Shown in pieces: positions 10,401 to 26,469 of a DNA stretch of 26,469 nucleotides (position 1 is its first letter; the number at the start of each line of letters is the position of its first letter). Below the pieces are notes generated by a model. It did no database searches and had not been told where the DNA came from. It worked only from the letters and a program-made list of their open reading frames with translations. The translations under genes and the position numbers were made by a program. Source of the DNA: a virus; the IMG/VR virus record IMGVR_UViG_3300030450_000247, positions 1-26,469 of that record, one strand, 5' to 3'.

Positions 10401-13400
10401 TAAAGCTTCTGATGCTATATCAGATCTCATTTCTTCTATAGCTTTTATAGCATTTTCTGTTGCTAGAATATCAGGATCTTTAACTTTTTTAGCTAAAAGT
10501 TTTTTATAAAGATTAATAGGTCTATCTGTCCATTTTTTCTGTTGTGCAGCCAAGGTTCCAGAAGTAAGGCTTCTTAACTTCATCCATTCACTGGTTTGTT
10601 TATAGAGCATAAAAGATTCTTCTGCTAAATATGATCTATAAGCTCCAGAAGCTTCAGTGGTTAAATTCTTTCTAGATAAAGCATCAACTAATTTATAAAC
10701 TCTATTTGCTTGAACATAAAGTAATAAAGGTGTAGTCATCATTTGAGTCTGAACATCCTTTAGAAGTTTTTCAGACTTAGTAGTAGCTTTAAGATGGTTT
10801 TCTAATAAGCGATAAAACTTTATATATTCACCTTCTGCTTCTACTAAACTCCCTGCAAATCTTACAGCCCTTCTAGCTGCAGCAGGTAGATAATTCTCAG
10901 GTTTACCTGAAAGTTTAGCGAATAAATCAACTAAAGCTGCCCTTCTTTGTTCAATAGTATCTAAGTCACCTATAGTTCTTGATATAGCAGCTAATTTACT
11001 TTGTTCCCACTCATAGGGCATCTGCTTCCCTTGAGCTTCAAGTTTGGCCATTTCATTTACTGTACTAAGAAAGTCCTGACCAGCCTCCTCAGAAGAACCT
11101 CTAGTTACTAAGTCTTCTACAGAAGATTTAATTGGACCTTCTTTAGTTTTTAGCTCTAACTCTTTACCTATTTTTACTCTTTTCTGAGCTGCAGTTTCTG
11201 GTGGTTCAGTTGTATAAGCTATTGGCTCACCTTTAGCGTCAGGATCAATAGTTATACCACCTTCCTTAGTTTCAACAACAGGCATTACATCTGGATCATC
11301 CCAAGGATCACCTAGATCTTCATCTTTACCTACGGCATCTGTTTTAGCTTCTTTTAATGCAGTATCTTCTGCAAGTCTTTGCTTCTCAGCTTTAAGTGCA
11401 GCCCTTCTAGCATCCATTTCTGCTTTAGAAGGTCTACCAGCTTTAATTACTGCTTTTTTAGCTTTCTTATCAACTTCACTTAAAAATAGAACTGTTTTAT
11501 CTAGATCTCTTAAAGCTTTTTGAATAGCTTCTTCTCCTGCAACCCTTCCTAGATTTAATAAATTAAGAAGATCACCAACTGTATTAATAACTGTTCTTTC
11601 TTCTAGAGGAACATTCATTCCTTTTTCTAGTTTTTCTATAGCTTTCGATAATCTGTTAAAAGCTGTTTTTGCTTGATCTCCATCAGGAGACATACGGATA
11701 AGTTTTGAGATAAGAGTTTTCTTATCAACTTTTGTAGGAACACCATCAGCTACAACCTCTACTTCACCTGTCTTCTCAATTTTCTGGATAGCAGTTGTAA
11801 TTGGTTCCTTTTTAGCAGGAACATCAGGAGCTGTATATTCTTGACCTTCTAAAACACTTCCAGCTTCTTCTTCTTCTACTTTGATTTCTTCTTTTTTATC
11901 TACTTCTGCAGCTTTCTTAGCTTCTTCTGCTTTAGCTACTTCAGATTGAGGTGTCTTTAAAGGAGTCTTACCGCCAAATTCTTGTAATTTCTTATATTCT
12001 TCCTGAATAGTATCGAATAACCTATCCTGTATAGTTGGATCATCAGATACTTTATATTCTTCAAATAATTCTTGAACACGTTTAAAAGCTGCATAATATG
12101 GATCATTGTTTAAATCCATATCAGGAGCTAGTTTAAATCTTTCCTCATTAGTTTTACTAAGCATCTCCATTAGGAGACTAAAATCACGTACTACTGCTTC
12201 AGTTTCTGCTTCCTCAGTATTGCGTAAAGGTTCTAATTTTTCTGTATATTCTTGATCTACTTTTGCTACACCTTCTGATGCTTCTACTCTTTGAGCTAGG
12301 TCAGCTTCAATATCTTTTAATTCTTGTTGATATTTTTCTAAATCATTTTGATATCTATTTCTAGTTCTAGTTTCTTTTAATGTTAAATTTTTCTTGTTAT
12401 ATTTACGAGATTTAAGAGAAGCTAAACGGGCTTTAATTAATTTAGGTAAAGTATTATATCTAGCTAAAGTTTTTTCAGGTAAAGTAGCTATCTTTTCAAG
12501 AGTTTCTGTTGTTGTGGTTTGTCCAGCATCTAGTTGACTTATAGATCCTCTTAATTCATTAATTCTATCTATTTGCTTATTAATAACATCTAAGCCATCT
12601 CTAGTTGTTTGAGTAAAGTCCTTATTTAAAACCTCTAGACTTGCCTTATTAGCTGTGTTATAGATAGCTTCCTGAGCAGCCTCAGTTGTTTCAGCAATAG
12701 TTTCTATATTAGGTCTAATTTTTAGCTCTAATTCAGCTTGTATCTTCTTACTATTGAAGAAGTCTTTAACACCTTTTTTAGCTTTAAAAAATCTCCATTC
12801 ATTATTTAAAGCACCTAAAGAACCTCTAAATAATCCAGCAGCTATTGTACCAAAACCTACGTTTGCTAAATATTGCTGCCAATACTGTGCTGAGGCATCG
12901 TCATTTGACTCTATTAAATTTCTAAGAGCTTCTACGGTTTGAGGATCAGCAGCGTTTATTATTCTATCTAATTCTTTTGATTGCTCATAACTAGGCTCTG
13001 GCATTCCAAATATTACAAGTTCTTCAACAAAATCTTCTGGAAGATCAGCAGCAACACGTTTAGCTATATATAAAGCGTTTCCTCTAGCATTTTTCCAATA
13101 TAGATTAAAAGCAGTTCTACCACGTAAACCTAAACGAGTACCAAATTGTGCTTTACCTAGAGCAATACCACGCCTTAAAGCTCCTAAATTAGGTGCGCCC
13201 TGCTTTGCATTCACTGGGTTCCCTAATGACATTAAAAGTATTGAACCAAAATCAGCAACTATATTAGCTAAATCTCCATCTGGTTTAGTAGCTTCATACC
13301 AAGAACCACCTTTACCAAAAACACCAACTATAGGTATATCTTTATCAATACCAAATCGTTTTAATTCTCCTCCAGTAGTTTCTGGATCTAAAAGACCTTT

Positions 13401-13910
13401 AAGTGCGTATTGCCTACCTCTTTCTACTCTTGCTTTTTCTTTTTCACTTAATGCAAGACTTGCACCTTTTATACCCATTGCGTCATCAAATTCTCTCTGA
13501 GCTTCTTCTCCACCACCTATTCCAAGACCTATCCTTGCGCTTGTCATAGCAAGTGCTGCATCACCTCCATAAGCACCCATAGACATTGTATAGGTATCTC
13601 TTATAGGCGTTGTCTGTGCTCTTTGTTGTATGGATGATACAAAAGTATCTGGTATTTGAACTACTGCGTGTTGACTAGTTTTAAAAGCATTTTGGAACCA
13701 ATTTGGTCCCTTGCCTATATCACTTTGATTATCTTCAGAAAATCTAGATAATTTTGTTATAGTTTCTGCTTCTGACTCATCTCCCTTTTCATCTTCTTTT
13801 ACTATAGTGTCCTCTTCAACTGGATAAGATCCTTCAGGATGATCCTCTAAAAGCTCCTTTTCAGTTTCATAATATTGGACAGCTCCTGAAGGGAGTACAA
13901 TTCTAGGCAT
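7449..13910 (-). CDS. 16: Internal virion protein gp16-like, giant DNA-ejection core protein
   Basis: This 2153-aa protein is the largest in the window. It begins 4 nt after the gp15-like stop and its stop abuts the fibre ATG. Position, size and order identify it as the T7 gp16 counterpart, the inner-core protein ejected to form the trans-envelope channel. It is far longer than T7 gp16 (1318 aa). The start, MPRIVLPSGAVQYYETEKEL, leads into a charged region. A short hydrophobic stretch lies near residues 345-365 and another near 1800-1830. Residues about 375-620 are Lys/Glu/Gln-rich and predicted by eye to be coiled coil. About 650-715 is a low-complexity K/E/A linker. The C-terminal half (about 1150-2153) is rich in Trp, Tyr and Phe, and is probably the conserved ejection part. 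I saw no lytic transglycosylase signature at the N-terminus, unlike T7. The function is assigned by synteny more than by motif. Confidence 0.8.
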   Translation of the reverse strand: MPRIVLPSGAVQYYETEKELLEDHPEGSYPVEEDTIVKEDEKGDESEAETITKLSRFSEDNQSDIGKGPNWFQNAFKTSQHAVVQIPDTFVSSIQQRAQTTPIRDTYTMSMGAYGGDAALAMTSARIGLGIGGGEEAQREFDDAMGIKGASLALSEKEKARVERGRQYALKGLLDPETTGGELKRFGIDKDIPIVGVFGKGGSWYEATKPDGDLANIVADFGSILLMSLGNPVNAKQGAPNLGALRRGIALGKAQFGTRLGLRGRTAFNLYWKNARGNALYIAKRVAADLPEDFVEELVIFGMPEPSYEQSKELDRIINAADPQTVEALRNLIESNDDASAQYWQQYLANVGFGTIAAGLFRGSLGALNNEWRFFKAKKGVKDFFNSKKIQAELELKIRPNIETIAETTEAAQEAIYNTANKASLEVLNKDFTQTTRDGLDVINKQIDRINELRGSISQLDAGQTTTTETLEKIATLPEKTLARYNTLPKLIKARLASLKSRKYNKKNLTLKETRTRNRYQNDLEKYQQELKDIEADLAQRVEASEGVAKVDQEYTEKLEPLRNTEEAETEAVVRDFSLLMEMLSKTNEERFKLAPDMDLNNDPYYAAFKRVQELFEEYKVSDDPTIQDRLFDTIQEEYKKLQEFGGKTPLKTPQSEVAKAEEAKKAAEVDKKEEIKVEEEEAGSVLEGQEYTAPDVPAKKEPITTAIQKIEKTGEVEVVADGVPTKVDKKTLISKLIRMSPDGDQAKTAFNRLSKAIEKLEKGMNVPLEERTVINTVGDLLNLLNLGRVAGEEAIQKALRDLDKTVLFLSEVDKKAKKAVIKAGRPSKAEMDARRAALKAEKQRLAEDTALKEAKTDAVGKDEDLGDPWDDPDVMPVVETKEGGITIDPDAKGEPIAYTTEPPETAAQKRVKIGKELELKTKEGPIKSSVEDLVTRGSSEEAGQDFLSTVNEMAKLEAQGKQMPYEWEQSKLAAISRTIGDLDTIEQRRAALVDLFAKLSGKPENYLPAAARRAVRFAGSLVEAEGEYIKFYRLLENHLKATTKSEKLLKDVQTQMMTTPLLLYVQANRVYKLVDALSRKNLTTEASGAYRSYLAEESFMLYKQTSEWMKLRSLTSGTLAAQQKKWTDRPINLYKKLLAKKVKDPDILATENAIKAIEEMRSDIASEALQDVDTYIGLPSNLKVVESTLRKFLDPKFVPEQRDLDIFTKITSQLAVSGLNPSSLGSLRISGDEIVGRNLKSYGLSNPATQTSFMPQTAIYGGGKWVNGMLQTVNNRFWDLLPWMKDEEATMAALKEQRIWNNFWKAQQNITTNVFENFYKGRQFNRSIITDAAVNLDNSGKFQTSSRTADPFREQAALEVLNKTDPLPNKGLGRLLNKYFEERYPGEGELKARQFANNWHLNWMQFHDMVFKGDTWEALGAKDPKTGKGSFFGSLQKFTYNWMNPLKRGSDAALQAASGGRATPLKSKLPGGERVGETFPLFASETSTELVGGWFAAGYSASKAWGQVLDMVDGTGRPKYVEYDADGSFNKDFLAAVQKVYDEEYTTPIVAGIGDNAEEIAKAFTDEDAQLLALGMDMMMPVEDDIYGAITGAIQKAQRNQDTGEANVVMQAFWPYIKAPLNAHKHHFYHTQPEPFSSGVVDIPMTPGQPWMPMGVPMEGAIGLARMVQAWDGKVMGKQIIGEEGRLMGLDYKKEKDLMVQRLGWFKSKVHHKDPKVRAEARSALTLATAFNFGVMSLVESGQIEATGGQVYSYQEANGAYIPPYHVKLGGYWVPYRWIPYFGELMAFSTNFRDFSKNGVPYLNQNAVGISVVSMAATIMDTPAISGIDTFVSALRSPDKAEALLIDYIERTMGSGYSPFVYAIGRLTTEAYHARPLEGASPAVLFKSEEDVNKYNEELGYGERWSVAKGNLKGSLDFISRAVTRFANKTGMLPLIEIMDQELLGQQEGDFRQAHWYKPGDITYTGPRQRSVLQTLLGRHWPVPHEGDAVDMELFRNGIKPPKQVFRRYGGIVANEAMVNKFRRFLGSEFTFSNGDSLYERYRSVISGERPIPGYPGVFYNDLEDDPKNSLTLDGNLAPWVRKDSPLTKRAVLMAIRKEAIKVAAEQFLRGEKTIYPIDSPSYQEPTNLRANDVANQIYKEWRKQNPNRTIN

Positions 13911-13914
13911 TTGT

Positions 13915-16713
13915 TTAAATTGCTAAATGAGGTGCTAATACCTTCTTAAAGATTCTACTTACTACATCCTGTGAAAGTCTAGTCCCGTCAGGACCAATGA
14001 TGTAGAGGTTTAAATGTGGACCAGCTCCAGGTCCATCAGCTTGATCTACTCCTATAGTAAACGTTTTCTTATTATGCTGAAGTCCTAAATAGTTACCTGG
14101 ATATAATATTTGACCAACAGCTAGACCACCAAAGGATCTAGCGTGTCTAATAGTTATAGTAGATCCTGCTTCTAATTCTCCATTACTTTCTAATACTTTT
14201 ATGCTAATAAAATTACCATCAGTTCCAGAATTAAAACCTATTGCTGTTACTTCAGATTTTATAGGAACTGCAATATTAACGTTATTACTTCCATTTTCAT
14301 TATCTTGTACCCAAAAATTAATAGAACCAGTATCTGAATTACTTACTGGTGTTTCCGCAACCCTTACTGTACTACTAGGTCCAACAGTATTACTAGATAA
14401 ACGTCTTTTTAACTCATTAAGACGAGTTTCATCATTAGGTTCAAATAGACTAATAGTATCTCCCTTATTTCTCTTAGGATTTGTCCAGTAAAATACATCT
14501 TTACTTCCTTGACCATTTAAAAATTCTAGTAAAGTAAGATCTTTATTTTTAGATAATAGTTTAGCTAATTCAAAGCCTTGAGCAAGGTCAACTATAGCTT
14601 CATCCTCTATAGCTGCTCCAGTGCTTAAGAAGCTATAAACAGAACCAAATGTACTACTACTTAGCATTGGATTCTCCTTATAATAATTAAGTATTGCATC
14701 TGTATCTAATAGATACTTATTTCGTATAAGAAAATCTTTTGTACTAATTAATTTCGTATTAGCACTTGTAGAAATATCACCTTCTTCTCCTCTTATCCCT
14801 GTATATAAATGGCTTATCTCTCTTTGGGTATTCTGTTTGCTTGGGTATAAATCTTTAACAGTTGGATTTGCAAAAATTGGATCAGATTTTATAATCTCTT
14901 TAAAATCATTTACCTTATCTCTCCACCATTCATCATTAAATACCTGACCTTCTGGTGCTTTTAAAAGTTCTGCAGCAATGTAATCTCTCCATCTCTCTTC
15001 TACAAGACCTTCATTCTTTTCAAGTAATGCTGCAAAATCTCTTTTTATCTGTTGTTTATCATAAGTAGGGTTGTTGGCTTTATACAGTTTTTCTGCTTCT
15101 CTATTCATAGAGCTTAATACTGGAGTTATATTCTGAACTTGTGCGCTTATTTTTGCTGAATAATTCTCTTTAAGTGCAAGCTTAAAAGCATTACGCTGCA
15201 ACGTAGCTATATCTTTATATTGCTCTGTTCCTGGTACTAGCTTTTCAAAAATATCGATTAAAGGATCTTTAGAATTTGCTACTAATCTTCTTAAAGCTGA
15301 TTGCTCAAGAAGCCTATATTCACTCTCTGGTAATAGTTCCCCACCCTTCCGTATTAATTTCTTCAACCCTTCTACGTCTGTATTTGCAGGTAAATCAAAA
15401 GCTACAGTTTCTACTTTTCCTGTTTGATCATTAAAAACTCGTAAATATATTTTATCGTTATTTTCTAATGCATTATCTAAGGCTTGTATCATATTTGTTT
15501 TTACTAGCTCTGCCTCAGCTCCAGTTTTTCCTTCTAAATAATAATGAATAGAATTTCTGTATTTGATTTTAAATCTACTTGCCTCTCTAGTATCTTTTTG
15601 ATCCTCTATACTTTCTTTCTTATTATCAGCAACTTGAGCATTGAAACCAGCAATACTTAAAAGATCTCCTATAGTTTTACCATCTCCATCTGGACCAGGG
15701 AGATCCAAGAAGGTCATACCTTCAGGCATATCAGGAAGTTGAAAACTTAAAGCTTCTCTAACTTTGTTAAATAGATCTTTATCTTGTAAGTCATTAACAC
15801 CATCATTGTTTTCATCAATAAACATCCCTTTAACCCATTTACCAGCTATTACTTGCCACTCTTGACCTGTACCTCCTGTAGCAAGATAATTATTTCTAAT
15901 AGCTAATATCTGGTCCTTTGCACTTTTATTAATACCAGCATTTCTCGCATCATTAGTTGAATCTTGACTAACAGAACTAAGGAAGGACTTTTCAACTTGA
16001 GTTAAAGATGTCATTGTCTTTAAATCTCTAGCATTCCCTTTGTAAGTTCTATGGGCATCATTAATACCCTGTAAAATAACGGGAGTAGTTTTAGCAATTA
16101 CTGGATCAACTAAACCGTTATAATTTTCATTTGATATATGTGGATAATTTTCACTTAGAAATTTGCTAAATTGTTCAGAAACTAATTTTCTAACTGTAGT
16201 GGGATCTTCTATTACTTCAAGATCATTCATATTTCCTTCAACCCAATTGCTAACGTGCATTGTGGCTTCATTGCCTGCAAAACTAGCTTCTTGAGTTTTA
16301 AGACCAAAGAATAACCAAGGGTTGCTATCTAATATCTCCTTTGCAAGATCAGGTCTACCAGCCTTTCTAAGATCTTTTGCAGCTTGACCTATATTTCTTG
16401 TATCTATTTCGTATTGAGAAATCTTTTCAAATAGACGCTTACCTTGAGCATCTTTCTGTTTACTTTCTCTTTTAACAGTTGCGTCTACAGTAAGTTTACC
16501 TGCTTCAGTTATATCTCTAATAGCATCTATTTTTTGCTGTGTTTCTAGTTGTGTAGCTGGATCATATTGATCAAAGTCTAATAATGTACCACCCCTTCTT
16601 TGAGGGGTAGTTTGTGGTTCTGCAGGTTGACCACCCTCTGGTGCTCTCTCAGCTTCCTCAGTTACTTTGCGTATCTGTCTTTGAGGCTTTACTTCAAATT
16701 TGTTAGTAGCCAT
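13915..16713 (-). CDS. 15: Internal virion protein gp15-like with degenerate M23-type C-terminal domain
   Basis: This 932-aa protein (T7 gp15 is 747 aa) starts in a TAATG overlap with the gp14-like gene. Residues 1-45 are charged and proline-rich (APEGGQPAEPQTTPQRRGG). Residues 50-790 are mostly helical by composition, with no recognised motif, as expected for the inner-core tube protein that follows gp14 during ejection. Residues about 800-925 differ. They read like an M23/LytM peptidase fold, with VNIAVPIKSEVTAIG, GNFISIKVL, ITIRHARSFGGLAVGQIL and GPGAGPHLNLYIIGPDG matching the family pattern in order. The residues aligning with the zinc ligands appear changed: S809 and N813 replace the H..D pair, and HLN at 900-902 replaces HxH. 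H857 and H900 remain. The core-protein call rests on gene order. The degenerate domain is inferred from a manual alignment. Confidence 0.8.
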   Translation of the reverse strand: MATNKFEVKPQRQIRKVTEEAERAPEGGQPAEPQTTPQRRGGTLLDFDQYDPATQLETQQKIDAIRDITEAGKLTVDATVKRESKQKDAQGKRLFEKISQYEIDTRNIGQAAKDLRKAGRPDLAKEILDSNPWLFFGLKTQEASFAGNEATMHVSNWVEGNMNDLEVIEDPTTVRKLVSEQFSKFLSENYPHISNENYNGLVDPVIAKTTPVILQGINDAHRTYKGNARDLKTMTSLTQVEKSFLSSVSQDSTNDARNAGINKSAKDQILAIRNNYLATGGTGQEWQVIAGKWVKGMFIDENNDGVNDLQDKDLFNKVREALSFQLPDMPEGMTFLDLPGPDGDGKTIGDLLSIAGFNAQVADNKKESIEDQKDTREASRFKIKYRNSIHYYLEGKTGAEAELVKTNMIQALDNALENNDKIYLRVFNDQTGKVETVAFDLPANTDVEGLKKLIRKGGELLPESEYRLLEQSALRRLVANSKDPLIDIFEKLVPGTEQYKDIATLQRNAFKLALKENYSAKISAQVQNITPVLSSMNREAEKLYKANNPTYDKQQIKRDFAALLEKNEGLVEERWRDYIAAELLKAPEGQVFNDEWWRDKVNDFKEIIKSDPIFANPTVKDLYPSKQNTQREISHLYTGIRGEEGDISTSANTKLISTKDFLIRNKYLLDTDAILNYYKENPMLSSSTFGSVYSFLSTGAAIEDEAIVDLAQGFELAKLLSKNKDLTLLEFLNGQGSKDVFYWTNPKRNKGDTISLFEPNDETRLNELKRRLSSNTVGPSSTVRVAETPVSNSDTGSINFWVQDNENGSNNVNIAVPIKSEVTAIGFNSGTDGNFISIKVLESNGELEAGSTITIRHARSFGGLAVGQILYPGNYLGLQHNKKTFTIGVDQADGPGAGPHLNLYIIGPDGTRLSQDVVSRIFKKVLAPHLAI

Positions 16714-17618
16714 TATGCTTTATCAGATGAAAGGTAGTCATTATCAACCCCATAAGGTTGTGAACCATCAGTTCGAGAATCAAAGGCAGGTTGATCATTA
16801 CCGCCTTCTTCATCATTACCACCTTCGTCTTCATTGTCATTGTCAGGATAAGTCTGTGGAGCAGGTCTGTTATCCATATAATTGTTATAAGCCTTCATAC
16901 CTGCACTAGCTACATCTAGTAAACTTAAACTAGTTGATACCGTTGGTTTTCCAGGTAGATAACTTTCTGCTGGTAGAGGAGATTCAGGTTGAACAGGATC
17001 TTTATAAGGTCTGGGATCATATAATCTAATAGAATTAGCTTTGTTTTTAGCTTCTATTGCTCCAGCCCTCATAGCAGCTAATTTATCACCTACTCTAAAT
17101 TCTCTTGTAATTAATCTATTACCTGCATTTTGTAAATATTGTTGATTACGGGTATGGTACATACGCTCTATACTTGCTCCCACTTGACCACTTGAAACTC
17201 TTTTTACAGCATCAGATAAAGCTTTTTGTTTAATTTCTTCTAACTGTACAGTATCAGTAGCTTCTTCTTCATAAAACCTTGCATCTAAATCTGCGTATTC
17301 TCTACCTAAAGATTCCATTGCATTTATAGAAGTTTCAGTTTTTAACTTTGAAGCATCACTCGATAGTTTATTTTCATATTGCCTAAGTTCTGTAACATAT
17401 TGAGATTGTTTAGCCCAGTTCTTCATATCTACACTGTGTTGTCTAAAATTTTGCTTATTTTCATGCTCTGTTCTTCTTATAGCATTTATGGTATCAGATT
17501 CCCACTTAGCCCAAGCTTGTGTAGCAGCACCAGCTTTAGCAGATGCTTGCTGCCAAAGGTTAAGACCAAAATTTAAAGCTCCTCCTACTCCTGGCGTAAA
17601 TAATGTTGTGAAATCCAT
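16713..17618 (-). CDS. 14: Internal virion protein gp14-like
   Basis: This 301-aa protein is linked by 1-nt TAATG overlaps to the genes on both sides. The N-terminus (residues 4-25: TTLFTPGVGGALNFGLNLWQ) is hydrophobic and could insert into a membrane. Residues 30-215 are Ala/Gln/Lys/Glu-rich helix. They include VSSGQVGASIERMYHTRNQQ, then a stretch rich in R and A that parallels the G..G.S..R....N pattern of T7 gp14, the core protein that forms the outer-membrane pore during ejection. Residues about 215-250 are proline-rich and the C-terminus from about 254 is strongly acidic with Gly/Asn/Glu/Asp runs, which T7 gp14 (196 aa) lacks. Assignment rests on position between gp12 and gp15, architecture and the partial motif. 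Confidence 0.75.
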   Translation of the reverse strand: MDFTTLFTPGVGGALNFGLNLWQQASAKAGAATQAWAKWESDTINAIRRTEHENKQNFRQHSVDMKNWAKQSQYVTELRQYENKLSSDASKLKTETSINAMESLGREYADLDARFYEEEATDTVQLEEIKQKALSDAVKRVSSGQVGASIERMYHTRNQQYLQNAGNRLITREFRVGDKLAAMRAGAIEAKNKANSIRLYDPRPYKDPVQPESPLPAESYLPGKPTVSTSLSLLDVASAGMKAYNNYMDNRPAPQTYPDNDNEDEGGNDEEGGNDQPAFDSRTDGSQPYGVDNDYLSSDKA

Positions 17619-20503
17619 TAGGTTTCTCGGTACTTCCTAGCTACATCAAAATACAAGCCCGTCCATTCTAAAGCAACGAACTTAGCTTGATCAATACTGT
17701 CGTTTACTACTTCTACTGTAACTTGATCATTCTTACTTTGGATATAGGAACGAAACTTAGCTTCTTCAAAATCAGACTTTTGACCAACTATGATATTGGC
17801 ATTTAAAGGATCTCTACGATCAAATTCATAAGTAATTTTATCTCTATACTTTGGGGTCACATCTACTGTAAAATACCTAGCATCATTATAGTAGACATCC
17901 AGATAACGTAACTGAAGTCTACCAGTACGATTACCGATAAAAGTGTTGTCCGTAGCCGTTTTGCTATAAGGCATGAGTTGAGGTGGACTAAACTTAAATG
18001 TAACGGTTTCACCAAAGGCCCAAGAAGATCCACTGAAATCACCCAAACTATCCAACACAAAACTATTAACCCCAGCAGGAATAGACGCAGCCACGATCCA
18101 ACGTTTTTCAGCTTCATTATTATCTGTTTTATCCTTTTTAATAATGACAAACTGACTTGGGTTTACAGTGTAATAAGGTAAGGTAACTGTTGTCTTATTA
18201 GTTGCACCACTATATGCAAAAGAAGCAGTACCTATATCTGTAGTAATCGTACTAGATAACTGCCTATCCAATAGGAATAAAGCATCCTCTGACTGAGGAG
18301 GTCTAGAAGCATTGAGTCCTTCTAAATAATATCTTGTTTGACTATTCTCTGTATATTTAGCAACTGTGTATAATGTACCTTCAACAAAATCAGCCCAATA
18401 TAAGCTCTTATTAGGGAAGGTCCATTTAGACCAAGCATTCTGTCTATTAGTTAAAGAACCGCCTGAAGCCTCCCAGAAAAATTGATATACATATAAAGAA
18501 TTAGGATCGTCTTTACTTAGAACTATTAAATATTGATCTGTTCTACTAACAGCTAAAGAGTCTACATTCTTAGGTATATACTTAGGAACTGTCTCTGTAA
18601 TTACAGCAGTCTGTCCGAGGTTAATACCAACAGTACGGTCAGTAGTAATAAAAGTATGTAACCCTGTGAAGTCACCCTCTTTAACAGGGAATATAACTTG
18701 AGGTCCAACTTGCTGCGGCTTAACATTTGACTCCATACTAATAGAACTAATCCTACCTACAGAAGCAGTTTCTGGAGAAAATGTAACGTTATCACCAGAG
18801 TAAAGTCTGAACTGGTTTTCGTTAGAAAATAGGACCAACTCATCCTGCTGCTGTAGAGCATAATTAAGTACAGCTACATCATTACTAACTGCTGTTAAAT
18901 CTATAGGATCATTATCTAAAACTTGTAAAGCTGATTGCTGCCAAAAATTATAATAAGCACCAGCTTCACTAAGAATTATATTCTCTCCACTTATGAAACC
19001 TAATCTATTCTTAAAGAAAACAAGGTCTGTAATCTTATTAGTTACAAATGAAGGTCCAGCTAACTCATCATCATCTCCTGCTAATCTCTCTGTCCATTTA
19101 GCTAATTTTATAGTTGTAGAGCCATCAGTATAAGTAGAGCCATCAAAAGGTTGTACTGTAAATCTTGTTAATCCTGAATCATTCTTGTAATAAACAAAAG
19201 AATGAGGCATTGTAGAATCATCTAGCTTACCTGCTGTACCCCATCCACCAACTTCTTCCCAAGTACCTCTACCAAAAGTACCAGCAACAGTAGTGTTCTC
19301 AGCATTAAATTTAAGATAATAGGAGCTTTGATCTGCAGCTCCATCTGGAGCAACTATAACTTGATAACCTTCCCAAGAAGTGCTTGGTAATTCAACTATA
19401 TTAGTAACCTGATTTGAAAAACCAGACATCAGTGTATTACCTCTAGCATCAGAAGCTACAAAACTTTTTATGGATCTAGAAGCACTAGCTAGTCCTATAT
19501 TTATTTGAGAATCTTGTACGCTAAAGGTTAGATGATTACTCGTATCTGCTGTGTTAAGAGCAGACTGAAGATCAGTAGCTATTGTTTGGGTACTTACTGC
19601 AGTACCTGACGATAAAGTAGCTGTAGTTATATTTGCATTTACTGTGTCTCCATTATCAAGTTCTATAGCAACTTCATACTTAGTATTGTAGTCAACAAGT
19701 TTTATCCATAATTGAGCCTTAATAGGTACATAGCTACTACTGATATAACCTATATTGTATCTAGTTAAAGTTTCAGAAGCGTCATATGCAGTATTTTTTT
19801 GGATATTAGTTACAAACACATAATCTTGAAATGATGTAGATCTAAATCTATCTCTAGCTCTACCTGAGCCTCTAAAGTATTCAAGATTAGTAGTAGTTAC
19901 TCCTGCAAAGATTTGTTCAACAGGTACTACACTTGGAAGTATTCCAGTAAGAGGTTCTATATTAGAAACTCCTGCTACAAAAGTTTTAGGAGAATCAATA
20001 GTAGCTGTAACTCCACTAGCACTAGCTGTTGTATCCTTATCTATTGTGAAAGTTGTAGCTCCAATTTCTGTAATTGTTGAACCTGAAGGAATACCATTAC
20101 CACTTACTCCAGCTCCTACAAATAAATCAGTAATTCCTCCAGAGGTTATTGTAATTACAGATGTACTATTAGTTGTTACTGTTTTGGTAACAGTCCTACT
20201 ATCATCAGCAATTATTAAAACAAATCTCTCATCCGTACTTCTGTTGTAAACAAAATACCAAGCTTCATCCCATTTAATAGTTCCTGTTAAGTTATTTCCT
20301 GGAGTACCATGACCATCGTATTTAGTTAGATTATCTATACGCTTTAAAGGTACAGAACCTAATCTCTTTTTAAGACCTTCAACAAGATCACAATTAGCAT
20401 TCTCAAGAGTTTTAGCAAACCCAGGTAAAACAAAACTATTAGCTTGTTGATTTACCCCTTTATTAAGAGGACCAATTACTTGGCTAAAAAGTTCTCTAGA
20501 CAT
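17618..20503 (-). CDS. 12: Tail tubular protein B (nozzle)
   Basis: This 961-aa protein (T7 gp12 is 794 aa) overlaps the gp11 stop by one base (TAATG). The near-identical landmark FFKNRLGFISGENIILSEAG with a following NDPIDLTAVS at about 496-530 matches T7 gp12, as do the opening GPLNKGVNQQ, GRLQLRYLDVYY late in the protein and EWTGLYFDVARKYR at the C-terminus. It forms the distal nozzle of the short tail and contacts the fibres and gp11. Residues about 104-171 are Thr/Ser/Gly-rich (TNSTSVITITSGGITDLFVG, then GVSGNGIPSGSTITEIG). They do not resemble T7 gp12 but do resemble a small beta module found in many repetitive surface and phage proteins, so this is probably an insertion. The identification is secure. 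Confidence 0.95.
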   Translation of the reverse strand: MSRELFSQVIGPLNKGVNQQANSFVLPGFAKTLENANCDLVEGLKKRLGSVPLKRIDNLTKYDGHGTPGNNLTGTIKWDEAWYFVYNRSTDERFVLIIADDSRTVTKTVTTNSTSVITITSGGITDLFVGAGVSGNGIPSGSTITEIGATTFTIDKDTTASASGVTATIDSPKTFVAGVSNIEPLTGILPSVVPVEQIFAGVTTTNLEYFRGSGRARDRFRSTSFQDYVFVTNIQKNTAYDASETLTRYNIGYISSSYVPIKAQLWIKLVDYNTKYEVAIELDNGDTVNANITTATLSSGTAVSTQTIATDLQSALNTADTSNHLTFSVQDSQINIGLASASRSIKSFVASDARGNTLMSGFSNQVTNIVELPSTSWEGYQVIVAPDGAADQSSYYLKFNAENTTVAGTFGRGTWEEVGGWGTAGKLDDSTMPHSFVYYKNDSGLTRFTVQPFDGSTYTDGSTTIKLAKWTERLAGDDDELAGPSFVTNKITDLVFFKNRLGFISGENIILSEAGAYYNFWQQSALQVLDNDPIDLTAVSNDVAVLNYALQQQDELVLFSNENQFRLYSGDNVTFSPETASVGRISSISMESNVKPQQVGPQVIFPVKEGDFTGLHTFITTDRTVGINLGQTAVITETVPKYIPKNVDSLAVSRTDQYLIVLSKDDPNSLYVYQFFWEASGGSLTNRQNAWSKWTFPNKSLYWADFVEGTLYTVAKYTENSQTRYYLEGLNASRPPQSEDALFLLDRQLSSTITTDIGTASFAYSGATNKTTVTLPYYTVNPSQFVIIKKDKTDNNEAEKRWIVAASIPAGVNSFVLDSLGDFSGSSWAFGETVTFKFSPPQLMPYSKTATDNTFIGNRTGRLQLRYLDVYYNDARYFTVDVTPKYRDKITYEFDRRDPLNANIIVGQKSDFEEAKFRSYIQSKNDQVTVEVVNDSIDQAKFVALEWTGLYFDVARKYRET

Positions 20504-21138
20504 TAGCGGTTTAAAATATCAGGACCAAAAACAGTTGTCACACGACCACCATACATATCATCAGGACCACTAATGAAGTTATAGTTTTGTGCCATATCTT
20601 CAGTACGTTTAAGTAACTGAAGAGCTTTTTCCTCATCATCTGCGGTATAGCTTTCTATACTACTGGAAGTAACTGCACGATTAGCAAATACTCTTGCAGC
20701 TTTAATTACAATATAACGCTTACCTGTTTCTGGTATATCATCCCAATCTAATTCTTCTACAATTTGAGCTATTAAATCACTTGTGCTACCTGTCATTGCT
20801 ACAGATAAACTTGTTCTTAAATCATATGTACTTTTCACTCGATCATATAATTTAGTACCACGAAGAACAAAGCGTTGTGATGGATAAGAAAGAGGATTAA
20901 ATCTTACAGCAAGAGTATTAGCACCAAGAGTTGAGTGACCATTACTGTCTAAAGGAATTGCATCATATAGTCTAGTATTCCATGACCATCCATTACCTTG
21001 AACTTCTGAACTTATTTCATCAATAATACTTTCAGCTAAACTCACATCTCCAGTTAAGGGTGCTGTTAGTTGATTAACAGGAGCTTCTCCTATTACTGAT
21101 AAAAGAGTATTTACTGCTTTGAGTTTTGTAGTAGCCAT
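20503..21138 (-). CDS. 11: Tail tubular protein A (adaptor/gatekeeper)
   Basis: This 211-aa protein is the first gene after the capsid terminator. The N-terminal motif AVNTLLSVIGEAPVNQL (residues 8-24) matches AVNDILASIGEPPVSTL of T7 gp11. GNGWSWNTR, LYDRVKSTYDL and YIVIKAARVFANR later in the protein fit the same family. The length is close to T7 gp11 (196 aa). The protein forms a ring of subunits linking portal and nozzle. No strong Shine-Dalgarno sequence is visible before the ATG, which lies just 3' of the terminator hairpin, so its expression may rely on readthrough transcripts. The stop codon overlaps the gp12 start in TAATG, suggesting coupled translation. Confidence 0.95.
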   Translation of the reverse strand: MATTKLKAVNTLLSVIGEAPVNQLTAPLTGDVSLAESIIDEISSEVQGNGWSWNTRLYDAIPLDSNGHSTLGANTLAVRFNPLSYPSQRFVLRGTKLYDRVKSTYDLRTSLSVAMTGSTSDLIAQIVEELDWDDIPETGKRYIVIKAARVFANRAVTSSSIESYTADDEEKALQLLKRTEDMAQNYNFISGPDDMYGGRVTTVFGPDILNR

Positions 21139-21145
21139 ATATTAA

Positions 21146-21175
21146 ACAAAAAGGGGAAACTTTACGCCTCCCCTT
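21146..21175 (-). terminator. Rho-independent terminator after the capsid gene
   Basis: On the minus strand an AAGGGGA/TCCCCTT stem of 7 bp (21175-21169 with 21157-21151) encloses an 11-nt loop and is followed by TTTGTTT. It lies between the major capsid and tail tubular A genes, the position of T7 T-phi. The U tract is interrupted by one G, so termination is probably partial, which would raise capsid transcript over the tail genes. Confidence 0.8.
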
Positions 21176-21206
21176 ATTGTATTAGGTTTTAACTGAAACT
21201 TACAGT

Positions 21207-22619
21207 TTAGTATGGATTACCATCATGAAGTAAGCTTACGCAGCAATCAGGACGGAGTATTCCGTGTCCAACTGCATATGAAGCAACCATCATGGTGGAC
21301 TGAGTCATTGCTTTGTACTCAGAACCAGTCATCTGCATTGAGAGGTCTTTAAGTGCAACAGTACCAACGGCTTCTTTTGTGAAGCAAAGACCGAACAAGT
21401 TAGCAACGCTTGAAGTGTTACCTTGCTCATCCTGCCAATAATCGTTGTATCCTGCAGCAGCTTGTCCATCAGAACCGTCTCTACTATTTGTATAGTTAGG
21501 ACGCTCACCTCTAGTTGTAGCAGCTTGGTTATCAAGTCCAACGTATGTTTGACCAGATGTGTAGCTGTTAATTCCTAGATGGTTAGATAGGCGAACCTCG
21601 AAACCAGCAACACGGGCTACATTGTTACCCTTGAAGGTTCCGTTCTGTCCACTTCCACCGTTCCAATCAGTATTAATTGCTCTGTCAGAGTTGATGACAT
21701 CATAATAGGCGCCTGGGGTTAGAACAACCACACGGCCATCAGATGGAGCATCCTTCTCATCAAGTGCTTGACAAGCTTTGTAAAGGTTCTCAACAATAAG
21801 ATCACCTCTAGCGTTTCTGTCAGCAGCACCATTCAGGTTAATACCTGTGTATGATGTTCCTCCAGGAAGCTTGTTAAGTACGAATAGACGCTCTCCAACT
21901 GTAAACGCTGCATTAGCACCAGTACCAATAGCACTGATTGGGTTAACAACGAATGTTGCTGCACCGTTAGATGGAGCTGTAGTTATAACAGCATAAGCAC
22001 CAGAGTCTTCACCATAAACAGTTGTACCAACAGCCCAGTAGCTTAGTTCAGCAGTCTGGAAGTTAGCTGACAGTGTAATGGTGTTTGTACTTACAGAAGC
22101 ATAAGTAGCAGCGTTCAACTGGAATCTCTTTGAATCCCAATCATCAACACGACCATCAGACTCAGAAGCAGAAAGAAGTGTACGAGCTAGGCGCTTATCA
22201 TAGCTTCTGGCAAGTGCTCTTCCTAATTCCTTACTATAGATTGACCTCACATCCCAATGGAGTTTGGCTTCATCTAAATCATACAAACTAACATCTGCGA
22301 CAAGTAGATCATCAATTGTAATAATTTTTGATCCAATCTCACCTTTGTTGCCTTGGCCTGTTATCCAGTCACCTGGTCGGTGATATCGACTTGAAAAGCG
22401 ACCCGTAATTGGAAATTCTGCGGATTTTCCTGAAGAGATTGTCCTCTTCATGGTTAGATCTTTGAAAATCGTTTCCCTATTGAAGGTAGTTAGTACCTCC
22501 CCTGAGAAGATTTTCAGGAAGTTCGCATTCTCCCTTTCATAATTTCCAGCGGCAGCGTTGGCGTTATATTGTACGCCATTAACACTACCTAATCTAGAAA
22601 TCGATGAAAAATCAGGCAT
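21207..22619 (-). CDS. 10: Major capsid protein
   Basis: This 470-aa protein sits between the scaffold and tail tubular A genes and matches the T7 gp10 family in order and content. Landmarks include an N-terminal arm (1-40), IFKDLTMKRTISSGKSAEFP (51-70), GELGR-like helices (ELGRALARSYDKRLARTLL, 131-149), NLYKACQALDEKDAP (278-292) and VVLTPGAYYDVINSDRAINT (298-317), then a C-terminal VGTVALKDLSMQ. It forms the HK97-fold icosahedral shell. It is about 125 residues longer than T7 gp10A (345 aa). Much of the excess is a beta-rich Thr/Ala/Gly stretch at about 165-255 that looks like an inserted domain. The ribosome binding site reads TAGGT, 7 nt before the ATG. No slippery sequence for a gp10B-type frameshift was seen near the stop. 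Confidence 0.93.
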   Translation of the reverse strand: MPDFSSISRLGSVNGVQYNANAAAGNYERENANFLKIFSGEVLTTFNRETIFKDLTMKRTISSGKSAEFPITGRFSSRYHRPGDWITGQGNKGEIGSKIITIDDLLVADVSLYDLDEAKLHWDVRSIYSKELGRALARSYDKRLARTLLSASESDGRVDDWDSKRFQLNAATYASVSTNTITLSANFQTAELSYWAVGTTVYGEDSGAYAVITTAPSNGAATFVVNPISAIGTGANAAFTVGERLFVLNKLPGGTSYTGINLNGAADRNARGDLIVENLYKACQALDEKDAPSDGRVVVLTPGAYYDVINSDRAINTDWNGGSGQNGTFKGNNVARVAGFEVRLSNHLGINSYTSGQTYVGLDNQAATTRGERPNYTNSRDGSDGQAAAGYNDYWQDEQGNTSSVANLFGLCFTKEAVGTVALKDLSMQMTGSEYKAMTQSTMMVASYAVGHGILRPDCCVSLLHDGNPY

Positions 22620-22722
22620 CGAAATTACCTAGAAAAAATAGATTAGTGTGATAAGACTTACGTCACCACTGCTGTTATCTCCTCAGAGGCAACAATTTTA
22701 CATAAGCTATACTTATGATACC
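22620..22722 (-). promoter_or_regulatory. Intergenic leader upstream of the capsid gene, candidate promoter region
   Basis: At 103 bp this is the largest intergenic gap in the window. On the minus strand it carries, in order, a perfect inverted repeat CATAAG-TATAG-CTTATG (22717-22701), a short palindrome CCTCTGAGG (22690-22682) and an AT-rich leader with the capsid ribosome binding site. In T7-like phages this is the usual site of a strong late promoter. I could not match a known phage RNA polymerase promoter consensus, so promoter activity is an inference from position. Confidence 0.35.
22701..22717. repeat. Perfect 6-bp inverted repeat downstream of the scaffold gene
   Basis: CATAAGCTATACTTATG on the plus strand has 6-bp perfect arms and a 5-nt centre, beginning 5 bases past the scaffold stop on the transcribed strand. 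It lacks a following U tract, so it is more likely an operator-like or RNA-processing element, or chance in AT-rich DNA, than a terminator. Confidence 0.5.
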
Positions 22723-23355
22723 TTAAAATCTAGGGCTAAGTATATCGCTCCTTGACATTTTATCCTCTACGTCTTTTGTATAAGCAGCGTCATGTAAATA
22801 ACGTGGATCATTCATAGCACTCTCTACCTCCGCAGTAGAACGATAAACATCTGTACTGTTATTAGATAACCTACCGCTAACAAGTTCAGGTTCTACACCA
22901 GAATTTTCTCTAAAAGCAAAGTAAACAGATTGAAGTGCATTCCTAGCACGAAAGTAATCTCCACTATTAACTTCTCTGTTATAGGCGTTTAACTCTTCTT
23001 GATCTAGATTTTTTTGTGCCCAATCCTGAGCAGATTTAAAATTATCCTGACCACCAATACTGTCAACAATGGTGGTTTCTTGTTCATCACTTAGTTGTAC
23101 TGATTGAGGTTCCTCAGTCTGAACCTCCTCACTTTCCTCATTCTCTTCTGTTTTAGTTTCGTACCCAGTATTGGAATTACCTCCAAGTTTCTTTTCAAGC
23201 TCTTGATAAGCATTGAGAAGTTCATCGGCAGTCTTAAACTTTCCACCAATGAGTTCCTCCTGCTGACCTTCTTGTTGAGGCTCCTTACCATCAATGATCT
23301 GTTGGTCCTGTTCATTAAAAGAACTGGTTTCCTGCTCTTGAACATTAACTTCCAT
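22723..23355 (-). CDS. 9: Capsid assembly scaffolding protein
   Basis: This 210-aa acidic, Gln/Glu-rich protein lies between the portal region and the capsid gene. The N-terminus (1-36) is disordered and Q/E-rich. GGKFKTADELLNAYQELEKK (37-56) is a motif often seen near the start of scaffold proteins of marine T7-like phages. A second acidic low-complexity stretch follows (63-90), then helical segments (QDNFKSAQDWAQKNLDQEEL, about 100-119), and a C-terminal part with Arg and Lys that would contact the capsid inner surface. It is shorter than T7 gp9 (307 aa). The ATG lies 2 nt after the stop of the 59-aa gene. It directs capsid polymerisation and is then expelled. The call rests on composition and synteny, which together are strong. 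Confidence 0.88.
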   Translation of the reverse strand: MEVNVQEQETSSFNEQDQQIIDGKEPQQEGQQEELIGGKFKTADELLNAYQELEKKLGGNSNTGYETKTEENEESEEVQTEEPQSVQLSDEQETTIVDSIGGQDNFKSAQDWAQKNLDQEELNAYNREVNSGDYFRARNALQSVYFAFRENSGVEPELVSGRLSNNSTDVYRSTAEVESAMNDPRYLHDAAYTKDVEDKMSRSDILSPRF

Positions 23356-23357
23356 GT

Positions 23358-23537
23358 TTAACCAATACGGACAGTTAGATCAGGATACACCCAAGCAGGT
23401 TTTTTTGCTTGAAGCGCCCTTTTATATTGTGCATAAACTTCTGGTTTCTTAGCTTTTAACTCTTCAATAAGAATTTCATATGGAGATTTAGACTTACCCT
23501 TTGGTGGTTCTTCTAGAACTGCTGGCTTAGATTCCAC
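23358..23537 (-). CDS. Small protein between portal and scaffold
   Basis: The preferred start is GTG at 23537. It has AGGAG 6 nt upstream and an 11-nt overlap with the portal stop, giving about 59 aa. An ATG at 23588 in the same frame would add 17 residues (MTQSGQTKKQPLQQEKK) but lacks a Shine-Dalgarno sequence and overlaps the portal by 62 nt. The protein begins ESKPAVLEEPPKGKSK and is Lys/Pro-rich there. It then contains SPYEILIEELKAKKPEVYAQ, continuing with YKRALQAKKPAW, a short helical basic region, and ends VYPDLTVRIG. No T7 gene lies at this point and I do not recognise the family. Its place in the procapsid cluster suggests a head-assembly accessory protein. Confidence 0.75.
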   Translation of the reverse strand: MESKPAVLEEPPKGKSKSPYEILIEELKAKKPEVYAQYKRALQAKKPAWVYPDLTVRIG

Positions 23538-25137
23538 CTTCTTCTCCTGCTGGAGGGGCTGTTTCTTGGTCTGTCCTGATTGAGTCATTTTCAGCTTTAA
23601 TAAGTGCGGCTTGCTTTGCAGGATCATTTTGAGGATCTTGCGCTGCTTGTTGCTGTTGCATCATCATAGCCTGTTGTTGTTGCTCTTGTGCAAGATCGTC
23701 TTCAGACTTGATTAGCTTATAAGTTTCTAAACCATCTGAGGCTGCAAGTCTAGTGATAAGCTCCCTAGTATTAACAAACTGAGCCATCGTCTCTGGACCC
23801 ATAGTTTGAGCTAATGTTTGTATAAATTCAATTAACTTAGCTTTATCATTACCTCTACCCAAGGCATCAAGACCTGTCGTAATACGAGGCTTAACAATAT
23901 TTTTTGGTAATCTAGGTAAACGTTTCTGTCTCTCCATCATTGCCATCTTTCGATGTACTAGAGGTAGTTGCATTTCTACAGAAAGTATAGAATATACGCC
24001 TCCTAATCCTGTCTCCAACTCATTTGCAACCATTCTGATTTCTTCCGCAGTGACTCGGTCCCGTCCTGCTGCTCCAGCTTGAATAGCACTATTAAGTAAG
24101 AACGAAAAGCTCAATCTTTGCTCAATCCTTGCAATAGTATTTAACGCTACTGTAAGGTCAGCTTGTTTCTGCATTTGCAGTGGTGCTACATCGTCTGGAT
24201 TTCCCGCTACAATGGCCCCATTTGCGGCTCTGGCAAGACTATCTGGCCTTGTAGTACCATTCGGGTTACAGAGAAATAAAATCCGTGCTGACGCTGCACT
24301 ACCTTCAACGATAGCTTTTGAAAGAAACTCAAGGGATTTAAGATCACCTAGCAGCTCTTCACAGAAACTGCGTCCGTAAGCTTCATGTGCAACACGATAA
24401 AGCCTGAGAGGAATCCAAGGAGATTTCTCTATAGGTGTTGATCCTTGTTGACCTATACGCTTTCCGTAAGCCTCTTGATACCAATAACACTTATCCTTCT
24501 TATGATCCCACTCAATGTAGGTATATAAGAAACAAGTTTGATCTACATATTTACCATCATGTGTTTTCTTAGCTACACCATCTGGTAACACATCTGGACT
24601 TATCTCTTCTCTAACAACTACTTCAAGAATATTTCCTTCTGGATCTCTATTTAAACAAAAAGATTTAAGTGGATAAACTCTAGTACCATTATCAGCTACA
24701 TAAAGTAAAGCATTACCACCAATAATTAAATGCTTGAGTGCTTCAAATAATGCTGTTCTATCTCCTGATTCTTCAATGTCACGCATTACAGCACGTTCCA
24801 TTAAAGATAACTGCTGATCAAAATTAGATTGTAAATCTTTATAATTTTCTAACTCCTGCTGGAGTTTCATATCGTCTACTGAAAGACGAAAGAATGCTTG
24901 GTTTGGAGGTAACAAAGCAACTAAAAGTTTAGCTGCTAAATTATTAACACCTCTAGCTCCTAAGCCTTGGTATGTAGTATTGATTTTTGTATATGCATTC
25001 CTACCTGAACTCCTATCGTTATCAGTAATAAGAGTAGGTAGTGTATATTTACTACACTCAATTGCTCTATCTAGATAAAGACTTTTTTCAGGCTCTAAAG
25101 AACTATATCTACCTTCTGCGGTAAATTTTTTAGACAT
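23527..25137 (-). CDS. 8: Head-tail connector (portal) protein
   Basis: This 536-aa protein has the same length as T7 gp8 and clear similarity along its whole length. Matches include GARGVNNLAAKLLVALLPPN (60-79), ALFEALKHLIIGGNALLYV near 130-150, AYGRSFCEELLGDLKSLEFL near 255-275, RVTAEEIRMVANELETGLGG then VYSILS (about 360-385) and ITTGLDALGRGNDK near 415-430. It forms the dodecameric ring at the capsid vertex through which DNA is packaged and ejected. The C-terminus (about 483-500) is Gln/Met-rich (QEQQQQAMMMQQQQAAQ). Translation starts from a strong GGAGG embedded in the end of the preceding gene. Its 3' end overlaps the following small gene. Confidence 0.97.
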   Translation of the reverse strand: MSKKFTAEGRYSSLEPEKSLYLDRAIECSKYTLPTLITDNDRSSGRNAYTKINTTYQGLGARGVNNLAAKLLVALLPPNQAFFRLSVDDMKLQQELENYKDLQSNFDQQLSLMERAVMRDIEESGDRTALFEALKHLIIGGNALLYVADNGTRVYPLKSFCLNRDPEGNILEVVVREEISPDVLPDGVAKKTHDGKYVDQTCFLYTYIEWDHKKDKCYWYQEAYGKRIGQQGSTPIEKSPWIPLRLYRVAHEAYGRSFCEELLGDLKSLEFLSKAIVEGSAASARILFLCNPNGTTRPDSLARAANGAIVAGNPDDVAPLQMQKQADLTVALNTIARIEQRLSFSFLLNSAIQAGAAGRDRVTAEEIRMVANELETGLGGVYSILSVEMQLPLVHRKMAMMERQKRLPRLPKNIVKPRITTGLDALGRGNDKAKLIEFIQTLAQTMGPETMAQFVNTRELITRLAASDGLETYKLIKSEDDLAQEQQQQAMMMQQQQAAQDPQNDPAKQAALIKAENDSIRTDQETAPPAGEEGGI

Positions 25138-25615
25138 TTAAGCCTCCAGCAGTACCAGATCCTTGAGAATAGCTAGAACCACCTAAACCAGATTTCATAG
25201 ATAAACCAGTTCTTAATGATGTAGGAGTGCCATGCTTTTTACGAGTACGGCTAGCTACTTTAGTTTTATTCTTTTGAAGAGCTATAGCAGATGCTAATTT
25301 GTTTTGTTGTATAGCTAAAGCAGATGAAGTTTTCTGCTGTGCTATTGATTGTTGAGCTGTTGCTTTTGCCTGTAATGCTTGTGCTTTTAATTGATCAGAT
25401 TGTTGTTTGGATTGTTTTAGATTAGATTCAAATTGTAACCGACTCTGTTTAGAATCGAGTTTCATTTGAGCTAACCTAGCTTCAGCTTGCTTCTTAGTTT
25501 CAGCAGCTTGACTTTCAAATTGTGCTGCTTGCCTCTTAGCTGCTTGTGCAGATTTATACCCTGAATAAAGGGTAGCTCCTGCGTTTAAAAAAGTGGCTGC
25601 TGCTAACCAAGACAT
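25130..25615 (-). CDS. Coiled-coil protein upstream of portal, T7 gp7.3-like
   Basis: This 161-aa protein has a hydrophobic N-terminus (3-19: WLAAATFLNAGATLYSG), a long Ala/Gln/Lys coiled-coil region (20-118) with no proline, a basic patch (TKVASRTRKKHG) and a Gly/Ser-rich end finishing GTAGGLNV. It lies immediately upstream of the portal gene and overlaps it by 8 nt. T7 gene 7.3, a virion protein ejected into the host or bound to the tail, holds the same position and also ends in a basic then Gly-rich sequence closing in SSGGGINI. The shared position and terminal pattern support a gp7.3-like assignment. The coiled coil is longer than anything in T7 gp7.3 (99 aa). Function by analogy: a minor virion protein needed for adsorption or ejection. 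Confidence 0.7.
   Translation of the reverse strand: MSWLAAATFLNAGATLYSGYKSAQAAKRQAAQFESQAAETKKQAEARLAQMKLDSKQSRLQFESNLKQSKQQSDQLKAQALQAKATAQQSIAQQKTSSALAIQQNKLASAIALQKNKTKVASRTRKKHGTPTSLRTGLSMKSGLGGSSYSQGSGTAGGLNV
25138..25147 (-). promoter_or_regulatory. Strong portal ribosome binding site inside the upstream gene
   Basis: GGAGG (25147-25143), five bases before the portal ATG, is formed by the two glycine codons of the GGLNV terminus of the upstream protein. It is the clearest Shine-Dalgarno sequence among the junctions examined, where many starts have none. Confidence 0.8.
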
Positions 25616-25621
25616 AATATT

Positions 25622-25801
25622 TTAATTGTACTTAGATTCCTCTTGTAAATTATACTGGTCTTTTAGATGACGTACAACTGACACCTGACCAGTGACGTAC
25701 CATATACGCCTTTCTTCCATACTAATATCTGGAGCCTTATCTGGATAGAGTGATTCCAAATAATCAATAAATTCTTTAGTTAAAGTAGGCACAGGAATCA
25801 T
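25622..25801 (-). CDS. Conserved-looking small hypothetical protein (59 aa)
   Basis: This 59-aa frame has its ATG at 25801 in an ATGA overlap with the preceding coiled-coil gene and TAA at 25622-25624, 6 nt before the next ATG. The sequence is acidic and aromatic: MIPVPTLTKEFIDYLESLYP, then DKAPDISMEERRIWYVTGQ and VSVVRHLKDQYNLQEE. Spacing, the stop/start overlap and the protein-like composition (balanced hydrophobic, charged and aromatic residues) make it a real gene. I do not recognise a family with confidence. It sits among minor head-protein genes, so a small virion or assembly protein is plausible. No membrane segment or catalytic motif is visible. Confidence 0.8.
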   Translation of the reverse strand: MIPVPTLTKEFIDYLESLYPDKAPDISMEERRIWYVTGQVSVVRHLKDQYNLQEESKYN

Positions 25802-26469
25802 ATAGTTAAACCACTAGGAGCTTCTACACCTTCATCTGGTTCCTGAGTACCACCAATACCTAAAGAAGATGTCTGTTTAACTGGTGTGTAAGAAACTCCA
25901 GGCTGTCCTACTGCTGAACCAGTCTCTTCAGAGCCTTGTTGTAGAGCTAGTTGTTGCTCTGCTTGTGCCTCTGCAGAAGCTAATGAAAGTTGTGATTGCT
26001 TTTTAGCATAACCTATCTCTTGTTTTGCTACTTGTTCTGCAGCAAAGGTGTCCTTTTTAGTTTGAGCTAATACGGCATCTGATTCTTCTTGAGCAATTCT
26101 TTGAGATTCAGCTTGTCGTGCAGTTGCTGCTTCTTGATCCTTTACTTGTTGATCTCCTAATGCTTTTGCGTCTTTATATTTTTGGTGTGAAGCTTGAACC
26201 TCCCTATTTGCAGCCTCTATATCTCTTTTTGCTTTCTCTTCTGCTGCTTTTTTAGCTCTATTTGCTGCAACGTGGCTAACAATAGTTGCTACAACCCAAA
26301 ACCATTTAAAAACAGTAGGAGATAAATTAACCTCTTCTTCTTCTTTAATATCTTGAGGCTCAGTTACATAAGCAAAAGCATATGCTGGCCTTAAATCATT
26401 ATCATTGTTAAGCATAACTTGGTAAATCCTGATTGCTTGTCTCAAAGAACGCTGGCATTCTGGCTCTTC
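25798..26469 (-). CDS. Membrane-anchored coiled-coil protein, 5' end uncertain or off the window
   Basis: The frame stays open to the window edge. A TTG at 26445 and an ATG at 26415 are possible starts, but neither has a well-placed Shine-Dalgarno sequence, so the true start may lie outside. Counting from the TTG, there is an acidic stretch at 30-40 (EPQDIKEEEEV), a hydrophobic segment at about 44-60 (TVFKWFWVVATIVSHVA) that could span a membrane, a long Ala/Glu/Gln/Lys coiled coil (61-165), and a Gly/Ser/Pro tail ending APSGLTI. The architecture repeats that of the 161-aa protein two genes downstream. Position just before the portal cluster parallels T7 genes 6.7 to 7.3, which encode minor head proteins. 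Function unknown; a minor virion or ejected protein is the likeliest guess. Confidence 0.7.
   Translation of the reverse strand, partial: EEPECQRSLRQAIRIYQVMLNNDNDLRPAYAFAYVTEPQDIKEEEEVNLSPTVFKWFWVVATIVSHVAANRAKKAAEEKAKRDIEAANREVQASHQKYKDAKALGDQQVKDQEAATARQAESQRIAQEESDAVLAQTKKDTFAAEQVAKQEIGYAKKQSQLSLASAEAQAEQQLALQQGSEETGSAVGQPGVSYTPVKQTSSLGIGGTQEPDEGVEAPSGLTI

Follow-up and report, generated by a model that had tools for sequence, protein, structure and literature searches.

A lineage-specific inserted domain with a putative bracing role in the T7-type capsid protein of a P-RSP2-like cyanobacterial virus

Introduction

The window analyzed in this study, the whole stretch of a 26,469-base virus record of the P-RSP2 kind, belongs to an ocean cyanobacterial virus. 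Its major capsid protein is 470 aa long, whereas gp10A of T7 (CDS 968-2005 of L157) has 345 aa, a difference already given correctly in an earlier note made from the sequence alone. That note proposed a surface insertion domain at residues 165-255, between segments fitting the HK97 core. Where the additional residues lie, whether they form a domain and what such a domain may do in the shell are the questions raised by this locus.

Capsid gene and genomic context

The structural genes are arrayed on the minus strand in the order portal, small ORF, scaffold, capsid protein, tail tubular A and tail tubular B, and the capsid gene is thus placed between those of the scaffold and tail tubular protein A (Table 1). 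The capsid protein is of the T7 gp10A type with an HK97 fold. It matches PF21703 (E 6.2e-45, 154.5 bits, cut-off 27) and phrog_267 (E 4.5e-62), each in two stretches, and these fragmented family-profile matches leave the middle of the protein uncovered. Positions 15000-26469 have a single megablast match in the phage collection, the Prochlorococcus phage P-RSP2 (isolated on strain MIT9302), whose 470-aa counterpart is 86% identical and annotated as hypothetical.

Table 1. Features of the capsid region, with positions in the window
Feature	Positions	Strand	Basis
Major capsid protein, 470 aa, T7 gp10A-like HK97 fold	21207..22619	-	ORF, PF21703, phrog_267
Insert, discrete extra block, residues 157/158-251	21867..22151	-	alignments, spacing counts, model
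Best-conserved part of the insert, a hairpin with its turn, residues 212-223	21951..21986	-	11/12 positions invariant in 61 unique inserts
Spine helix leading into the insert, residues 122-153	22161..22256	-	AlphaFold model
Second expansion, residues 354-401, A-domain loop region	21417..21560	-	spacing counts, alignment, model
Scaffold protein for capsid assembly, 210 aa, immediately upstream of the capsid gene	22723..23355	-	phrog_1052 E 1.8e-31; PF05396 E 1e-05, narrowly missing its cut-off
Tail tubular protein A, immediately downstream of the capsid gene	20503..21138	-	PF17212 E 6e-35

Several neighboring genes also show unusual features. At 210 aa the scaffold is short, as is that of P-RSP2 at 207 aa; the scaffolds of T7, P-SSP7, P-SCSP1u and Syn5 have 265-307 aa, and that of S39C11 has 219 aa. 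In tail tubular B (17618-20503, 961 aa) the best family stretch begins only at residue 205, and part of the preceding sequence resembles another added beta-rich stretch. Three ORFs in the position of internal virion proteins (7449-13910, 13915-16713 and 16713-17618, encoding 2153, 932 and 301 aa) have no PHROG match at E 0.01. In a P-SCSP2-like phage, L203 (IMGVR_UViG_3300030372_001513), a short group I intron at 2055-2285 (Rfam RF00028, 75.8 bits) interrupts the capsid gene close to its start, and the reading frame resumes ~250 bases on.

Extent and distribution of the insert

The T7 gp10A-like capsid proteins (PF21703; T7, P-SSP7, Syn5, P-SCSP1u) are like the window protein in fold, gene order and the sequence profile of both flanks. 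Sixteen shorter members, these four included, were aligned with it; they range from 316 to 397 aa and none carries the insert. The alignment is gapped over most of residues 157-251 and resumes at the PGGT motif, with a few loop residues aligned inside the insert in one protein, S38C3. A larger alignment, A6, comprises 126 rows; the insert is present in 35 of them, that of the window among these, and absent from 91. The rows lacking it are gapped across 158-251, barring a displaced linker of ~6 residues, and their stray residues within this range are few and occur in up to 8-9% of rows. The flanks join cleanly in the shorter homologues and no homologue of normal length aligned across the block, as the earlier note had expected of an insertion. 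The limits given in that note were slightly too far downstream; the gaps in A6 delimit a block of ~93-94 residues, absent from the T7-like relatives compared.

The distance between D141 and P302 separates the homologues into two sets. After 19 of 343 MCP ORFs were left out as incomplete, 231 unique complete proteins were counted, of which 171 have a spacing of 65-85 residues and 60 a spacing of 160-163, with none intermediate. No partial loss was found among the 60 insert proteins. Most of the remaining extra length is accounted for by a second expansion, which had escaped the earlier note. This loop is long and highly conserved in all 60 insert proteins, and long also in three of the 171 others, P-SSP7 and two relatives, which have no insert.

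A total of 80 loci were kept from a first scan that matched 186 stretches, and all of them span the insert. The tblastn search with the insert matched a single one of 50,697 phage records, that of P-RSP2. A profile of the insert gave 224 strong matches among 20,660 ORFs, a set itself collected using capsid and insert queries, and all 224 are in capsid proteins. From 79 pattern matches in the genome_contigs set, no relative of the insert was obtained. The capsid protein thus carries a clean, lineage-specific inserted domain. A literature search, short of most subscription papers, found no description of this insert, and the accessible parts of PMC9860041 and PMC4646655 do not mention it.

Conservation and phylogeny

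The insert is under purifying selection. The dN/dS values (pooled Nei-Gojobori, 36 sequences), rough ratios because dS is near 1, are 0.18 for the insert, 0.17 for residues 253-349 (part of the A-domain), 0.19 for 350-405 and 0.06-0.11 elsewhere. Its conservation falls short of that of the core: over 28 relatives, mean identity to the window is 77% in the insert and 85% in the core. Confinement to one lineage would be expected of a neutral insertion devoid of function, but the dN/dS value and the retention of the block in 60 of 60 proteins at nearly constant spacing make this explanation extremely improbable.

A phylogenetic tree was constructed from the capsid core after removal of the insert and the 354-401 loop. 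In this tree of 127 rows, the insert is represented by 21 (P-RSP2 and 20 of the 35 from A6), all of which fall on one side of one branch with SH-aLRT 100. This allows a single origin, and the P-RSP2 lineage probably acquired the insert once. The tree was built by a quick method and has long branches (1.84 for T7), and its topology is to be taken with caution.

The composition of the insert was also compared with the rest of the protein. Thr, Ala and Gly together make up 36% of the insert versus 26% of the remainder, in agreement with the richness pointed out in the earlier note; however, the content is higher still in 53 of the 377 94-residue windows of this protein, and composition, which therefore says little, was dropped as evidence.

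Predicted structure

The AlphaFold model built from alignment A6 is of moderate confidence (pLDDT 68.1, pTM 0.63). A first model from 29 close rows reached only pLDDT 40.5, and no fold claim is based on it. In the A6 model, the block means of pLDDT over residues 151-250 are 56-83, and values fall below 50 at residues 359-403, in the region of the second expansion. The insert is predicted, fairly confidently, as a separate unit of seven strands (159-166, 172-177, 180-183, 200-203, 209-214, 222-226, 244-250, assigned by DSSP) and one helix (189-195), lying between the spine helix and the A-domain. The native elements resume behind it with a strand at 255-260 and a helix at 268-288. Stretches quoted as beta-like in the earlier note correspond to the predicted strands at 180-183, 209-214 and 222-226, and its placement of the block outside the conserved core agrees with the model.

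The fold search was performed with the whole protein, and its result list was filled by matches to the capsid core. Among the matches were the HRP29 procapsid (Z 22.8, 288 residues, rmsd 3.1), the T7 prohead 3j7v_D (Z 21.1, 282 residues, rmsd 3.2) and P-SCSP1u 8i4l_A (Z 20.9, 294 residues, rmsd 10.3), as well as HK97 2gp1_A (Z 15.4, 236 residues, rmsd 4.8). The rest of the protein thus matches T7, in keeping with an insert flanked by HK97-core segments. Clean junctions, bimodal lengths and the model together support well an inserted, separately folded domain.

Sequence relatives of the insert

Searches with the insert alone gave no significant match in Pfam (best E 0.073), PHROGs (best E 0.032, phrog_358, 3 of 14 members) or PDB (best E 0.97). 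The hairpin at residues 194-218, ~25 residues of the insert, resembles modules repeated in giant cyanomyovirus virion proteins (phrog_358, DUF4815-type). The phrog_358 proteins, ~2,400-2,500 aa long (those of P-SSM4, Syn9 and P-SSM2 are L432-L434), contain several scattered copies of a ~45-residue hairpin module. A profile of 14 modules, from which four picked by eye and used to enter the family were excluded, matched, at E <0.1, 58 of the 76 insert ORFs and none of the 13,460 other ORFs; the window protein scored 0.11 and the best shuffled sequence 0.63, in a family that had itself been entered via look-alikes. The hhalign score of module against insert was 29.9, versus a maximum of 17.7 in 40 column shuffles, again for modules reached from look-alikes. 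For this reason the possible homology of the insert hairpin to the cyanomyovirus modules is taken only as a lead.

Only the hairpin of the insert matches. The data do not support homology of the whole insert to the N-terminal domain of these giant proteins: hhalign scored 14.0, versus a shuffle maximum of 16.3. The N-terminal-domain profile, built from 72 unique rows (77 of 80 loci), had 12 matches at E up to 10; three of these were among the 76 insert ORFs, with a best E of 7.6. Pattern searches for the module returned nothing with a first pattern and three places with a looser one.

The likeness to modules of large virion proteins, and the small size and predicted beta-rich fold, speak for the idea that the insert is an outside domain binding host or particle glycans, like Ig-like decoration proteins, instead of a brace. 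The accessible text of PMC7602432 ascribes to Hoc, pb10 and N4 gp17 a presumed part in adhesion, not in stability. The insert, however, has no significant family match in the three collections; its most invariant part is a hairpin with a turn, and it is constrained like the A-domain, beyond what would be expected of a host-facing surface. We therefore consider adhesion unlikely.

Position and possible role in the shell

By order and spacing of the elements in the model and in the HK97 sequence, the insert site agrees with the G-loop position of other HK97-fold proteins. A profile alignment to HK97 gp5 covered only residues 266-309, at a non-significant E of 0.32. In solved HK97-fold shells, G-loops are described in the outer layer, pinning the E-loop of a neighbor. 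The accessible literature reports that the long G-loop of P74-26 contacts the neighboring E-loop and the decoration protein (PMC6775164), and that the E-loop of phiRSA1 is locked by the G-loop (PMC8538268). Reported G-loop lengths are 10 residues in HK97 and 22-23 in phiRSA1 and P74-26. The long G-loops of HK97, P74-26, P23-45 and phiRSA1 are loops or hairpins, whereas a 94-residue domain occurs here, and the two are equivalent by position only.

On this reading, the P-RSP2 lineage took up, probably once, a small domain predicted to be rich in beta strands, where the spine helix ends and at the putative G-loop position. Such a domain would lie at the capsomer rims, on the outside of the shell, and would grip the tip of the E-loop of the adjoining subunit, bracing the shell as the long G-loops of P23-45, P74-26 and phiRSA1 do. 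The invariant hairpin at 212-223 would be the likeliest contact surface. T7, P-SSP7 and P-SCSP1u are reported without decoration proteins in the accessible text of PMC10575957, and the insert could provide a brace in place of a separate decoration protein. We give an even chance to this reading of the insert as an outside, E-loop-locking brace of a T7-type HK97-fold shell; the outside position and the E-loop contact are inferred, since the insert was placed by order and spacing and the HK97 profile comparison was not significant.

All 61 unique inserts are net acidic, with charges from -2 to -6, which would suit an outer surface better than one facing DNA. This charge, together with the outer-layer location of G-loops in solved shells, argues against an insert pointing inward to touch DNA, scaffold or internal core proteins, an arrangement we regard as quite improbable.

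Other capsid proteins with the HK97 fold have also acquired extra domains. The I-domain of P22 is likewise beta-rich, but it is reported to be joined to the five-stranded sheet of the A-domain between strands 1 and 3 (PMC5701804, accessible text), while the moderate-confidence model has the insert between the spine helix and the native strand 255-260. The predicted insertion site thus differs, and membership in the P22-type I-domains was rejected. The capsid proteins of crassviruses and T4 carry their extra domain in the E-loop, again a different site; that of T4 is described as one helix and six strands (PMC10172136, accessible text).

The same P22 source describes the I-domain as important for folding stability and assembly and implicates the G-loop in guiding assembly. 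By analogy, the insert might mainly aid folding or assembly through curvature, capsid size or scaffold contact. The short scaffold of the insert clade fits with such a role, but S39C11 has a short scaffold without the insert, and the short scaffold was rejected as the partner of the insert. A role mainly in assembly seems to us as doubtful as adhesion.

Implications

We consider the inserted domain real and its putative bracing role likely. A more tentative proposal, which we hold possible but rather improbable, is that a beta module of the kind found in cyanomyovirus virion proteins was taken into the capsid G-loop, so that an E-loop-pinning loop became a decoration domain supplied by the capsid protein itself, with one copy in every subunit. 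If true, a decoration domain would occupy a site that has no domain in any of the shorter T7-like proteins aligned. In viromes of the surface ocean, ~3.9% of the cyanopodovirus reads are reported to come from P-RSP2-like phages (PMC9860041, accessible text). The insert would mark a site of the T7-type shell that tolerates an extra domain, and a built-in domain at the junction of spine helix and A-domain would offer a natural case for testing how bracing arises in HK97-fold shells.
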